Source: Cyclobacteriaceae bacterium HetDA_MAG_MS6 (GTDB taxonomy: Bacteria; Bacteroidota; Bacteroidia; Cytophagales; Cyclobacteriaceae). From it: DNA of 36,597 nt. Made by a program: the position numbers and the translations under genes. Shown here in pieces: positions 22,689 to 32,019 of the stretch. A model generated the notes under the pieces. That model was not told the DNA's origin, did no database searches, and saw only the letters and a program-made list of their open reading frames with translations. The DNA lies in NCBI GenBank assembly GCA_019192485.1, contig JAHCMJ010000009.1, forward strand, positions 1 through 36,597. Direction: 5' to 3'. The first letter of the stretch is position 1; each line of letters opens with the position of its first letter.

Positions 22689-23297
22689 TCAGACTTCCTT
22701 ACCGGAAATAACCAGAATCATGTGTGATAACACTGAACAAGCTTGACTGGAAACTTTGGGCAGTTGAGAGATTGGCTTTCGTTGTGCAACTTTTAAAAAG
22801 GGGTGGTTACTTACAATTTGTTGGTAATGTTTTTCTTCGACTTCATCAATGTGCCAGTAATTATCTTTCTCGAAGTGATAGTCCCAAGGTGTTGGTCCTG
22901 TTGAGATGTAGTAGTCACGTAGCCTGGTGTAGCTGGAGGTCAGTTTTGGTCGATATAGCTCTAATGCTTCTCCTTCCATGTGCAGTGTAAAACTGATTTC
23001 GTTACCCCACCATATCATGATCCTAAAGGCAAATACTGAGGTCTTTGTGAATAACCTTGGGTAGTCCAATACGAAATAAGGTAAGTTACGATATCGCTCG
23101 CCTTTGGAGATTTTGCCGGATTTGGTAAATGTACCTTCCGGGAAATCAAACTTTTGATTAGCTAGAAGTACTTTTAACTGAGCCTCTGCATCACTTAGCA
23201 ATGCAACAACTTTTTTTGAGATCGAAACCTTGGCAAGTAGGAAGGACTTGTCGGAAAGTAAATCTATCTCAGCGTCAGTTAATGCCGGAATCGCCAT
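22689..23297 (-). CDS. conserved hypothetical protein (unknown function)
   Basis: 202 aa ORF directly abutting the fabH-like stop; no motif I recognise (NLPYFVLDYPRLFTKTSVFAFRIMIWWGNEISFTLHM). Confidence 0.7.
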   Translation of the reverse strand: MAIPALTDAEIDLLSDKSFLLAKVSISKKVVALLSDAEAQLKVLLANQKFDFPEGTFTKSGKISKGERYRNLPYFVLDYPRLFTKTSVFAFRIMIWWGNEISFTLHMEGEALELYRPKLTSSYTRLRDYYISTGPTPWDYHFEKDNYWHIDEVEEKHYQQIVSNHPFLKVAQRKPISQLPKVSSQACSVLSHMILVISGKEV

Positions 23298-26394: not shown

Positions 26395-28464
26395 TTATTC
26401 GATCACTATCACCTCTATTCTTCTATTAAGCTCTCTTCCATTTTCCTCGTCATCGTTTGATGCGAGTGGCTTGGATTCGCCGTATCCTTTTGCTCTCATG
26501 CGCACAGGATCAATTCCTTTTCTTGCCAGCCATTTGACAACTGCTTCCGCTCGATTTCTAGACATCCATTGATTGGCTTCCTCAGGTCCCCAGGCATCTG
26601 TGTGGCCTCCGATTTCCACGTTGATATCAGTATTGCTCAAGACATCATATAGTTCTTTTAGCACAGGTGTTGACTCTCTTCTGAGCTTGCTGGTACCAAA
26701 GTCAAAATAGATATTGTGTATTATGGCCTTCTTCACAACGGAATCTATGCCTTCCAAATCGGAAATGCTGGTGGAGGTTTCTCGCTGTTCTTTTGATATT
26801 CTTTTGGTGGTAGTTCTTTTAGAGGTACCCTCTTGTGCGATGTAATCTACCGGGCTAGGGATTTTAACATCAAGTTGAGTATCCATTGGCGTATTCATGG
26901 CTACTATTGGGGAGGTTTCCGACTTTGGTTTTGCCAAGGTGAAATCCTTGGTGACAATACTACTGGTCTGGGCATCAGCGTGTAGTTCAAAGGTTTGTTC
27001 AAAAACAATATCCCCATTCTGTACGATCTCAACGAGAAAAGTCTCATCAGAGATGATATCCGTTCTATAACGACCTTCTGCATCTATTGCAGACTTGAAG
27101 TATTCGTCGGTGTACATCGATGGCCTAAACCTAATTTCAGCACCATCGAATTGATCAGCAGCGAGTATATCCATGATCTGACCCTGGATTTTGACTTTTT
27201 CGATCTCCCAAAAGAAGTAAATATCGTAGTCTCCTTTGCTGTGCAACCTATTGGAGCTGAAGTATCCGGAGGTATTGTCGGCATTCATTTTGAAGTGCAT
27301 CTCGTCATCCGGTGAGTTGATAGGGAAACCCATATTGACAGGTTCGGACCAGGTCAATGTGACACTGTCAAATTCCGTTTTATAGACATCATATCCACCG
27401 ATGCTGCCATGACCTTGTGAACTGAAGTACAATGTTTTTTCGTCATGGCTTAAGTATGGGCTGTCCTCATCGAGTTCGCTATTGATGATGTCGGCAAAAG
27501 GTGCTGGTTTGCTCCACTTGCCTGTTTTGTGGTCCCTAAATGATTGAAAGAGGTCTAGCCCATGGGTACGGGCGTGTTTGTCTGAAGAGAAAATAATTCT
27601 GTCTTCGTGTTCATTGATAAAAAAATGAGATTGCAAGTGTGTACTTGTGATTTTGCTATCGAATTCGACAGGAGCTACCCATTTACCATTTCTGGTCTCG
27701 CTAAAAAAGAGATCTCCTCCCTTTTCCGGGTTGAAAACAAAAAGCTTACCGTCCTCATCGACCACTTCGAGATTGGCATGCTGCCTGCTGAAGTCCCCTA
27801 GAACCGGAATCTCACTTATTTTCCCCCAGGAATCTCCTTGTTTGGTAGCGTGATAGATCTTGAATATGCCCTCCTGCTCCCTGTCAGATGCAAAAAGAAG
27901 TTCTTCTTTTTCTTTGAAGTATGCAGGTGTCAACTCGGTCGAAGCAGTGTTGATAGCACCATCTAGTTGATGAATCTCATATTGGTCCGTGTTCTCAAAA
28001 AAGGCAATCATGTCCTTGGCCTGTTGAATGAAGTCTTTGGTCTCAGATACAATTTCCTTGCTTTTGTAGCCTTTTTGCTTCAAGAAGGTTTTCCACGACC
28101 CAATAGCCCTGTCAAAGTCGTATCTGTGAACATAAATTCGCCCGAGCCAATAATGAAAGAACCTATCTTTTCTACCTAGTGTCTTTCTGAGAGACATAAG
28201 GTTTTCCAGGCTTTTCTCCCGTTGAGAAGTCAGTAGTATGCAGAGTTCGGCCTTGTATTGGGCATCTGCATATTTTGGATTGATGCTCAGTACATCTTGG
28301 TATGCAGGAAGAGCCTCGGCCGGAAGTTCTTCGTAGAATAATTGCTCAGCTACTTTGTAGATTTTCTCTACTTTCTGAGCGAAAGAATTTGTGCCTGTTG
28401 TTAGAAACAGGGCAGTAGCTATTGCAGTTGCTATAATCGGACGTATCATTTCTTGGCGGAACAA
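26395..28464 (-). CDS. TPR-PD40-OmpA family protein (paralog 2)
   Basis: Same architecture as 24350-26314; OmpA C-terminus GGHTDAWGPEEANQWMSRNRAEAVVKWLARKGIDPVRMRAKGYGESKPLASNDDEENGRELNRRIEVIVIE. Confidence 0.9.
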   Translation of the reverse strand: MFRQEMIRPIIATAIATALFLTTGTNSFAQKVEKIYKVAEQLFYEELPAEALPAYQDVLSINPKYADAQYKAELCILLTSQREKSLENLMSLRKTLGRKDRFFHYWLGRIYVHRYDFDRAIGSWKTFLKQKGYKSKEIVSETKDFIQQAKDMIAFFENTDQYEIHQLDGAINTASTELTPAYFKEKEELLFASDREQEGIFKIYHATKQGDSWGKISEIPVLGDFSRQHANLEVVDEDGKLFVFNPEKGGDLFFSETRNGKWVAPVEFDSKITSTHLQSHFFINEHEDRIIFSSDKHARTHGLDLFQSFRDHKTGKWSKPAPFADIINSELDEDSPYLSHDEKTLYFSSQGHGSIGGYDVYKTEFDSVTLTWSEPVNMGFPINSPDDEMHFKMNADNTSGYFSSNRLHSKGDYDIYFFWEIEKVKIQGQIMDILAADQFDGAEIRFRPSMYTDEYFKSAIDAEGRYRTDIISDETFLVEIVQNGDIVFEQTFELHADAQTSSIVTKDFTLAKPKSETSPIVAMNTPMDTQLDVKIPSPVDYIAQEGTSKRTTTKRISKEQRETSTSISDLEGIDSVVKKAIIHNIYFDFGTSKLRRESTPVLKELYDVLSNTDINVEIGGHTDAWGPEEANQWMSRNRAEAVVKWLARKGIDPVRMRAKGYGESKPLASNDDEENGRELNRRIEVIVIE

Positions 28465-28555: not shown

Positions 28556-29254
28556 TTAACTGAAGAGGGTATAGTTGCCATGTTGGTCAGATGGCGTAGC
28601 CGGTAAGATAAGCTCTGCATGGTTCAATTGTAGGTTGTTGATCAGTGGACTTACCGGATGTACATTTAGCGCCATCTGGTAGGGTTGTCGTAAAAGGCTT
28701 TCCATGATTTGATCATCTATTTCGGAGCCTGTCCATGATTCGAGTACATCCTGCTGTAAAATGATGGGGGCATCTTCCTGGTAATTGGCCAACAGACCTT
28801 GGGCCTGTTGTGTTAATACTCTGAAAGACTTTAGGCCGAGCTCATCAAACTCGTCAGTTTCTTCCCAAGTACCCGCGACTGCAAAGGGTGATTTGTCCTC
28901 CTGATAGAAGTAATATGGAGTCTTTTTTTTCTTAGTAATCTGCTTCCATAGGTAAAAGCCGTCTACAATCAGAATGCATCTTCTGGATTTTACCGCTTGG
29001 CGATTGGCTGCTCTGTCAAGCGCTTGATCAGCTGGTAGGTTGAACAGCTTAGGGCTTAAATTTCTGTTATTAGATAGATTGGCCATCAGGCCCCATATAG
29101 CAGGAGAAACCGTGGCAGATTTACCATTAACAATGATCATAGCCGTTTGTGTCGGACCCAAATTGTAGCTGGGCTTGTATTGATCGGGAATATCGACTTT
29201 GAACTTTTTGGCGATATCCGATGATGAGCTGGTGATGGTAAACCTATCGATCAT
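28556..29254 (-). CDS. SRAP (SOS response-associated peptidase, YedK/HMCES) family protein, apparently without catalytic residues
   Basis: MIDRFTITSS...KPSYNLGPTQ...IWGLMANL...RRCILIVDGFYLWKQ...TPYYFY...FAVAGTWEE...RVLTQQA...APIIL. Start placed at ATG 29254 (track uses TTG 29263). Confidence 0.8.
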   Translation of the reverse strand: MIDRFTITSSSSDIAKKFKVDIPDQYKPSYNLGPTQTAMIIVNGKSATVSPAIWGLMANLSNNRNLSPKLFNLPADQALDRAANRQAVKSRRCILIVDGFYLWKQITKKKKTPYYFYQEDKSPFAVAGTWEETDEFDELGLKSFRVLTQQAQGLLANYQEDAPIILQQDVLESWTGSEIDDQIMESLLRQPYQMALNVHPVSPLINNLQLNHAELILPATPSDQHGNYTLFS

Positions 29255-29273
29255 ACCCGACAAAGCTACAAAG

Positions 29274-30263
29274 TCATTCTTTAACGGATTGACTTAATAT
29301 GAAACTCACTACAAGTTCCTCAGACCAGTACGAGCCGATATCATCGATGATACCAGGAAATCCACAATGACCCCCGAATCTGGGAGTCATAAAAGTGAGG
29401 TTTGCGTTACCATCAAAAAGAGAGTGATCAAGGCATTCAGGTGGCAGCAAGGGGTCATTTATAGCGTTGACTACCATCGTAGGGATGTTAATTTGTCCTA
29501 GGAAAAATTTGGCACTATTCTGCTGATAGTAATCTATTGCACTATCAAATCCATGAATAGGAGCGGTATAGTGCTCATCAAAGTCCATTAACGTCTTGAT
29601 TCTTGCGAACTTGTCCAGACCAAATTTTGGCAATTCAGGAAATTGAGCGTGTTTTGCTTTGATTTTGTTTCGGAGTGACTTCAGAAATCGCTTTTCATAC
29701 AGGATATTTTTGGGGTTAGAGATGTTTTTTGCCCCAGCATGCAGGTCAATAGGCACCGAAAAAGCTACGGCACTTTTGAGTGAATGGGGAAAATCATTTT
29801 CCCCTACAAACTTTAGGGTGAGATTTCCACCAAGGCTGAATCCAACCAAATGTATTTCTTGGTAAAGGGCAGAGGCAAATTGCACAACCTCCCAAAGATC
29901 ATCGGTGGCTCCGCTGTGATACAACCTTGGTTTCAGGTTTACCTCCTCACTGCATCCGCGACAGTTCCAGGCTATTACATCTATACCTTTTGCAAAACAT
30001 GCTCTTGCCACTCCAAGTACATATGGTCTTGTCGAATTGCCTTCAAGACCGTGCGAGATAATTACCACCCTGGAGCTGTTTTTAGTAAGTAGGTCAAGGT
30101 CCAGGAAATCACCGTCTCTTGTTTTTATCCTTTTCCTGATATAGGGTTTCGTTGTATTTACTCGTCTAAATAGTGCGGGGTAGATTGTGGACAGATGGCC
30201 ATTACGGAGACCCCAAGGAGGCGAGTAAGGTGTGAAAGTTGTGGTTGTCCTATTGGGAATCAT
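29274..30263 (-). CDS. YheT-like alpha/beta hydrolase
   Basis: SPPWGLRNGHLSTIYPALFRR, ISHGLEGNSTRPYVLGVARAC, AWNCRGCSEEVN, HSGATDDLWEVV, GFSLGGNLTLKF, NAINDPLLPPE, FGGHCGF. Confidence 0.9.
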   Translation of the reverse strand: MIPNRTTTTFTPYSPPWGLRNGHLSTIYPALFRRVNTTKPYIRKRIKTRDGDFLDLDLLTKNSSRVVIISHGLEGNSTRPYVLGVARACFAKGIDVIAWNCRGCSEEVNLKPRLYHSGATDDLWEVVQFASALYQEIHLVGFSLGGNLTLKFVGENDFPHSLKSAVAFSVPIDLHAGAKNISNPKNILYEKRFLKSLRNKIKAKHAQFPELPKFGLDKFARIKTLMDFDEHYTAPIHGFDSAIDYYQQNSAKFFLGQINIPTMVVNAINDPLLPPECLDHSLFDGNANLTFMTPRFGGHCGFPGIIDDIGSYWSEELVVSFILSQSVKE

Positions 30264-30384: not shown

Positions 30385-32019
30385 ATGGCTGAAGTTATCA
30401 GAATGCCAAAGATGAGTGACACCATGGAAGAAGGTGTGATAGCATCATGGCTGAAAAAGGAAGGTGATGAAGTAAACTCCGGAGATGTTCTTGCTGAAGT
30501 GGAAACGGACAAGGCGACAATGGAGCTTGAGTCCTACCAGGATGGCACTCTTCTCCACATAGGTGTCAAAGAGCAAGATTCTGTAGCTGTAGACGGAGTG
30601 ATCGCCATAATTGGAGAAAAAGGCGAAGATATCAAGGACTTATTGGCCGAAATAGCAAGTGGTGGTGTTGGAAATGGTGCACCAGCAACTGATGAAGCAC
30701 CTGCCGCAACATCCGAAAGCGCTTCAGTCGAGTCCATAGATGTTTCAGGTATTAATGCCTCTGTTATCACTATGCCTAAAATGAGTGATACGATGGAGGA
30801 GGGAGTCATATCTTCTTGGTTGAAAAATGTAGGAGATAGTGTGGAGTCTGGCGATATTCTAGCGGAAGTAGACACTGACAAGGCCACAATGGAGTTAGAA
30901 TCTTACGAAGATGGTACGCTACTATATACGGCAGTTGCGGCTGGTGAATCAGTCAAAGTAGATGGTGTTATTGCTATCATTGGTGAAAAAGGTGCTGACT
31001 ACGAAAAGCTGTTAAAGGCTCAGTCACAACCTCAGGTAGCCAAGCCGGCTGAAGCTTCTAAACCTGTTTCAACAGAAACTGCTACACCCGAAGCACCAAG
31101 TACTAGCCAACCGATAGCGACTAGTTCGTCCACAAATGGAAGAGTATTGGCTTCACCTCTCGCAAAGAAAATGGCGGCCGATAAAGGAATTGATATAGCA
31201 CTCGTACCGGGCTCAGGAGATGGTGGAAGGATCATCAAAAGAGATATTGAAAACTTCAAGGCACCGGCAGCTACGCCAGCGGGCTCAGAGACTCCCGCCT
31301 CGGCACCAGCGATTACATTACCTGCTATTGTGGGTGAGGAGAGCTTTGATGAGACTCCCCTAAGTCAGATGAGAAAGACCATCAGCAAACGTCTTTCTGC
31401 CTCTAAGTTTACGGCTCCTCATTTCTACGTCACCATGGAGATTAACATGGATAAAGCAATAGAGGCTAGAAAGAGTATGAACGAAGTGTCTCCAGTGAAG
31501 ATCTCTTTCAATGACATGGTGGTGAAAGCAGTTGCAGCCGCACTAAGACAACACCCTCAAGTAAACTCTAGTTGGTTAGAGGATCGAATCAGACACAATC
31601 ATCACGTGCACGTTGGTGTTGCCGTGGCTGTGGATGAAGGGTTGCTGGTGCCAGTAATCAAGTTTGCTGACAACAAGCCTCTTTCTCACATTGCTACGGA
31701 GGTGAAAGAACTTGCAGGCAAGGCTAAAAACAAGAAGCTACAACCAGATGAGATGACGGGGAACACGTTTACCATTTCCAATCTGGGGATGTTCGGTGTC
31801 GAAGAATTTACAGCAATTATCAACCCACCAGATGCTTGTATTCTGGCAGTTGGAGGCATTAAACAGACCGCGGTTGTGAAAGATGGACAACTAGTACCTG
31901 GAAATATTATGAAAGTTACTTTATCCAGTGATCACCGGGTGGTCGATGGAGCAATGGCTGCTGCTTTTCTTCAGACCCTAAAAGGACTACTCGAAGACCC
32001 TGTACGTATTCTGATCTAG
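30385..32019 (+). CDS. pdhC: pyruvate dehydrogenase E2, dihydrolipoamide acetyltransferase with two lipoyl domains
   Basis: Two lipoyl domains (ETDKATMELESYQDG, DTDKATMELESYEDG), peripheral subunit-binding domain (ASPLAKKMAADKGIDIALVPGSGDGGRIIKRDIENF), catalytic SSDHRVVDGAMAAAFL. Confidence 0.95.
   Translation: MAEVIRMPKMSDTMEEGVIASWLKKEGDEVNSGDVLAEVETDKATMELESYQDGTLLHIGVKEQDSVAVDGVIAIIGEKGEDIKDLLAEIASGGVGNGAPATDEAPAATSESASVESIDVSGINASVITMPKMSDTMEEGVISSWLKNVGDSVESGDILAEVDTDKATMELESYEDGTLLYTAVAAGESVKVDGVIAIIGEKGADYEKLLKAQSQPQVAKPAEASKPVSTETATPEAPSTSQPIATSSSTNGRVLASPLAKKMAADKGIDIALVPGSGDGGRIIKRDIENFKAPAATPAGSETPASAPAITLPAIVGEESFDETPLSQMRKTISKRLSASKFTAPHFYVTMEINMDKAIEARKSMNEVSPVKISFNDMVVKAVAAALRQHPQVNSSWLEDRIRHNHHVHVGVAVAVDEGLLVPVIKFADNKPLSHIATEVKELAGKAKNKKLQPDEMTGNTFTISNLGMFGVEEFTAIINPPDACILAVGGIKQTAVVKDGQLVPGNIMKVTLSSDHRVVDGAMAAAFLQTLKGLLEDPVRILI

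Follow-up and report, generated by a model that had tools for sequence, protein, structure and literature searches.

A candidate SRAP pseudoenzyme of Cyclobacteriaceae with a putative beta-clamp-binding tail

Here the window (a 36,597-nucleotide stretch of DNA from Cyclobacteriaceae bacterium HetDA_MAG_MS6) is found to encode a SRAP-family protein in which Cys2, Glu105 and His160 (numbered as in E. coli YedK) are all replaced, and which, judging from its sequence, is in all likelihood a pseudoenzyme. That it is both a pseudoenzyme and tethered to the beta sliding clamp (DnaN) by its C-terminal tail is the explanation preferred here, and it is held with a reasonable but limited degree of confidence. 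A more general proposal has about an even chance of being correct: that Bacteroidota SRAPs are sliding-clamp clients by virtue of a C-terminal motif and that a whole clade of them has turned into clamp-tethered pseudo-SRAP adaptors without crosslinking activity, the pocket having been newly fixed in the window protein's own subclade.

Results

Gene, frame and fold

The SRAP gene (Table 1) is open throughout and its product starts MIDRFT; no in-frame Cys start lies upstream, where the residues just before read FVALSG, and with the TTG at 29263 as an alternative start the product would be longer by MSG. The Pfam SRAP profile (PF02586), alignment to which had been proposed as a check, matches residues 1-207 over profile positions 1-213 of 214 with 144.3 bits (cut-off 27.1), that is, above the curated cut-off across the full domain, which places the protein within the SRAP superfamily. 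An AF2 model (pLDDT 87.8, pTM 0.85) adopts the SRAP fold, and a Foldseek search with this model returns YedK at the top and HMCES as a close second (E 2e-16, TM about 0.77, probability 1.00). The first-pass annotation had assigned the protein to the SRAP family with an intact frame and a retained fold; family and frame are borne out, and the predicted model agrees with it on the fold. The window gene is its genome's only detectable SRAP: a second, canonical copy was looked for and no other SRAP was found in this 94% complete genome.

Table 1. Coordinates of the SRAP gene, its neighbours and individual sites within the window
Feature	Position	Strand	Basis or remark
SRAP-family pseudoenzyme gene (candidate)	28556..29254	(-)	232 aa; translation, Pfam, alignment, fold match
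YheT-type alpha/beta hydrolase, directly upstream of SRAP	29274..30263	(-)	PF00561; GFSLGG nucleophile motif present
2-oxoacid (pyruvate) dehydrogenase E2 component, divergent neighbour	30385..32019	(+)	flanking synteny marker
OmpA/PD40 protein, downstream	26395..28464	(-)	synteny marker in most of the YQED subclade
Ile2 for nucleophile Cys2	29249..29251	(-)	alignment
Asn72 = YedK Asn75, kept ('FNLP')	29039..29041	(-)	alignment; 25/25 of the YQED subclade
Pro74 for Arg77	29033..29035	(-)	alignment
Leu102 for catalytic Glu105	28949..28951	(-)	alignment; always V/L/I/A in the YQED subclade
Gln159 for catalytic His160	28778..28780	(-)	alignment; Q in 20/25 of the YQED subclade
Asp161 for Arg162	28772..28774	(-)	alignment
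C-terminal tail D223-F231 (DQHGNYTLF), predicted to be disordered; NYTLF at 28562-28576 is the putative beta-clamp-binding motif	28562..28588	(-)	invariance, AF2 disorder, motif likeness

Active-site residues

Alignment of the window protein with YedK and 107 relatives confirms each of the substitutions that had been proposed by eye, namely Cys2 to Ile, Arg77 to Pro, Glu105 to Leu, His160 to Gln and Arg162 to Asp; it also aligns Asp3 with Gly3 of YedK. The claim that all canonical catalytic residues had been lost holds for Cys2, Glu105 and His160, but not for Asn75, a recognised active-site residue that is kept, as is Arg4; N31 and P34 (N37 and P40 of YedK) are likewise retained. With Ile at residue 2 the start Met should, by an established rule, stay, and for this reason the window protein would have no free N-terminal Cys.

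The Cys2 of SRAP proteins has been described as absolutely conserved (PMC3765255). For crosslinking by YedK, Glu105 is the most important residue after Cys2: Glu105 mutants have a slow phase at least 1000-fold slower, the H160Q mutation brings a 10-fold loss and the effect of N75A is only modest (PMC9436759), so that the retained Asn would not be expected to rescue the chemistry. An alternative Cys/Glu/His set, the presence of which would speak against a pseudoenzyme, was searched for and none is conserved in the pocket, where only a D/E at position 3 was found. The suggestion of a pseudoenzyme with a kept fold is thus supported both by the loss of Cys2, Glu105 and His160 and by the selection acting on the gene: dN/dS of the variants within genera is 0.02-0.35, and the variant gene is under purifying selection rather than decaying.

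The variant clade

In a tree of 104 SRAPs the window protein falls within a 54-row clade with moderate support (80/88). No row of this clade has a full catalytic set, and nearly all rows come from different genera of a single family, which, going by member names, is Cyclobacteriaceae; two further families of the order are represented as well. Catalytically dead SRAPs occur in Fulvivirga, Chryseolinea, Ohtaekwangia, Dawidia and other genera, and canonical SRAPs in Algoriphagus, Belliella, Aquiflexum and Nafulsella; the orthologue in Ohtaekwangia koreensis DSM 25262 has I2, A105 and Y160. Cys2, the acid at 105 and His160 are missing together from 34 of the 54 rows; Cys2 is kept in 10, His160 in 4, Arg77 in 8 and Arg162 in 18. 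Because some members keep Cys2 or His160, other parts of the clade may have residual chemistry. For 18 of the 54 rows the genome has no other SRAP match, and 12 of these genomes are at least 90% complete (by hand count).

Seven changes between the canonical and variant states are required by the tree, at least six of which are forced by well-supported branches. Positions 2, 105 and 160 have an entropy of 0 in 26 canonical orthologues and variability ranks of 154, 210 and 181 (out of 232) in the 54-row clade; that is, positions that are invariant in close canonical relatives are among the most variable ones here. The survey of Bacteroidota for the same variant that had been advised finds such losses in tens of genera. 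Chance or assembly error was considered as an explanation and ruled out, since identical losses recur across those genera.

Other altered SRAPs were encountered along the way. Those of L076:569-1264 (+) and L192:3001-3696 (+) (Echinicola shivajiensis) keep Cys2 and have lost Glu105 and His160 (CNAAA, CNPAG), and L076 is placed inside the canonical clade, as an independent recent loss. A second, separate set without catalytic residues (L299, L302 and L304, family f42 of the phylum sample) starts MSDRFV or MSDRYV, has Glu at 75, Lys at 105 and Gly or Asp at 160, and has no LF tail; at least one genome with this set (G672) has another SRAP, at L256, with Cys2, Glu105 and His160. In L031:1429-2127 (-) and L121:442-1134 (-), which belong to different families, Pro stands for Cys2, with Glu105 and His160 kept; after Met removal these proteins would have an N-terminal Pro, the nucleophile type of Fpg/Nei glycosylases, and might be AP lyases. 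The other SRAP type of Bacteroidota, the canonical form of which starts MCYxxS and which is the second SRAP type in two genomes (L114 of G059 and L115 of G035), appears altered there too, with an MSYDI start and changes at 105 or 160.

Genomic neighbourhood

The SRAP ATG lies 19 bp from yheT in the window. In most loci with enough flanking sequence, a SRAP gene, whether canonical or dead, stands behind a same-strand yheT, either overlapping it or within about 300 bases; among 80 named loci, which overlap in part with the first locus set, 22 canonical and 46 dead SRAPs are linked to yheT in this way. Because dead and canonical SRAPs share this slot, the dead protein is taken to be a positional orthologue in which catalysis was lost in place. 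Replacement by a paralogue was also considered and is ruled out by the occurrence of canonical and dead copies in the same slot. Elsewhere in the window, a conserved neighbour not assigned to a family (MAIPALTDAEIDLL..., 22689-23297 (-)) adjoins FabH in 8 compared loci; its product has one sub-threshold Pfam match only.

Pocket residues of the subclade

The window protein's subclade (termed YQED) comprises 25 sequences, several of which come from a small number of shared genera; the following counts are therefore not independent events. In YedK numbering, these sequences have D3 (24/25), R4 (25/25), N75 (25/25), a hydrophobic residue at 105 (25/25), Q160 (20/25), an acid at 161 (24/25), D/N at 162 (23/25) and P/D at the Arg77 position (20/25). 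Pocket positions drift in the rest of the 54-row clade, within which an acid occurs at position 3 in 42 rows. This fixed new set (D3, R4, N72, V/L102, Q159, acid160 and D/N161 in window numbering) suggests another ligand or partner.

The first-pass annotation had envisaged DNA binding without AP-site chemistry. That reading is weakened, because Arg77 and Arg162 of YedK, which presumably hold the DNA backbone, are lost as well (to Pro and Asp), Gly3 has become Asp, and the net charge is -3, the median for canonical orthologues being +1, with acids at window-protein positions 3, 160 and 161. The role given here to the two arginines leans also on a general remark in the literature (PMC3765255).

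The C-terminal tail

The tail has the consensus DQxGN[Y/L][T/S]LF, and Q224, G226, N227, L230 and F231 show no variation among 80 compared sequences, 54 variants and 26 canonical orthologues, rows that were found independently of the tail motif. The motif is present in all 80 named loci too, a count that holds partly by construction, the motif being one of two search patterns. The tail blocks have AF2 pLDDT values of 46-51 (window protein) and 33-47 (one canonical orthologue), and a segment that is invariant and yet predicted to be disordered points to a bound partner, as in linear motifs that engage another protein.

The segment N[Y/L][T/S]LF is similar to the beta-clamp-binding motif QLxLF, with Leu-Phe at motif positions 4-5, within a tail predicted to be disordered, and an invariant Asn227 in place of Gln at position 1. 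Clamp binding is affected only modestly when this Gln is replaced by Asn, and C-terminal tails are the site of several known clamp motifs (PMC11139829). Among phylum-wide SRAPs, 24/69 end in LF as compared with 11/543 other ORFs from the SRAP-comparison loci (Fisher p 5e-17), and 19/69 end in [STD]LF as compared with 0/543, the SRAP rows being related to each other and p-values hence descriptive. A perfect C-terminal QxxLF occurs in five SRAPs (L247, L258, L291, L305 and L014), and inspection by eye of the window protein's own genome finds the clamp motifs QASLF in DnaE, QINLF in a UmuC-like polymerase and QLTIEF in DinB. Two features count against a clamp motif: Asn rather than Gln at position 1 departs from the consensus, and the conserved D223, Q224 and G226 fall outside the pentapeptide, which hints at a binding site that is longer or of another kind. 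On balance, the tail is probably a clamp-binding one.

Discussion

On the preferred explanation, the window protein would be the vertical descendant of a canonical SRAP, one that stood behind yheT and crosslinked AP sites, and would have lost its nucleophile and its acid-base residues in place, so that the thiazolidine crosslink would no longer form. The SRAP fold would have been kept, the disordered tail DQHGNYTLF would most likely dock in the beta-clamp cleft, as would the tails of canonical SRAPs of the same operon, and the pocket of the subclade may have adapted to another ligand or partner. The result would be a factor that is tethered to the clamp at replication forks and does not crosslink, acting as an adaptor or occupant instead of as a suicide crosslinker; the variant SRAP very probably has another job at the replication fork.

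Several other explanations bear on the same evidence. The earlier reading, that the fold is kept for binding at AP sites, on single-stranded or junction DNA, with no chemistry involved, is helped by the retention of Arg4, N31, P34 and Asn72 along with the fold itself and by those clade members that keep Arg77 (8/54) or Arg162 (18/54); it is nonetheless unlikely, given that both arginines and Gly3 have given way in the subclade (to P/D, D/N and D, respectively), that the window protein is acidic, and that DNA-contact positions drift across the clade just as catalytic ones do. It is rather improbable that the protein serves the YheT hydrolase as a subunit or regulator, with the invariant tail binding YheT or some other partner and not the clamp: the two genes stand in tandem in most loci, canonical as well as dead, and are closely spaced in the window, but LF tails, including perfect QxxLF, also occur in SRAPs elsewhere in the phylum (which were compared for the tail only), and some tail-bearing SRAPs, on short flanks, have no adjoining yheT.

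An AP-site reaction by another route, in which the Met1 alpha-amine with Asp3 as base would form a Schiff base (lyase), might account for the prevalence of an acid at position 3, and YedK C2A remains able to form Schiff bases and to act as a lyase (PMC9436759). This is a very doubtful prospect, however, inasmuch as the C2A lyase strongly needs Glu105 (a 25-fold loss in C2A/E105Q; PMC9436759), which is absent here, and inasmuch as residue 2 is unconserved and an extra residue would shift the amine. Finally, decay of the gene after loss of need would fit catalytic positions that look free to vary across the clade, but can be given almost no credence in view of the dN/dS values, the lack of internal stops in the close relatives listed, the invariance of tail and scaffold, and the fixation of an alternative pocket in the subclade.

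That gene, operon slot, fold and invariant tail were all kept when the nucleophile was lost implies that SRAPs have a second function, a non-covalent one, which may be common to canonical members and which the variant clade makes separable and testable. The clade also points to sliding-clamp recruitment of bacterial SRAPs; a search of the open-licence literature found no published SRAP pseudoenzymes or bacterial SRAP clamp binding.

Comparison with known systems

Human HMCES shares the SRAP fold but, unlike the window protein, is a catalytic crosslinker. Its C-terminal PIP box, which binds PCNA, would be the counterpart of the tail proposed for the window protein, though the two tail sequences are unrelated; a SRAP-clamp link in Bacteroidota, if true, would be the bacterial counterpart of the HMCES-PCNA link. 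HMCES is a replication-fork protein (PMC10250235). A precedent in kind is ImuB, an inactive Y-family polymerase and repair pseudoenzyme that is predicted to act via the clamp (PMC11791113); its fold and pathway are unrelated and the likeness is one of analogy only. E. coli YedK has in common with the window protein the fold (TM 0.77), Asn75, Arg4 and scaffold motifs, and differs from it in having Cys2, Glu105, His160, Arg77 and Arg162 and in lacking the LF tail, the window protein being the reverse on each count. Also compared are the yheT-linked canonical SRAPs of Algoriphagus, Belliella (B. alkalica), Aquiflexum and Nafulsella (N. turpanensis), positional orthologues that occupy the same slot and end in the same tail, DQ[F/H]GNYTLF, but that have kept the Cys2/Asn75/Glu105/His160 set.
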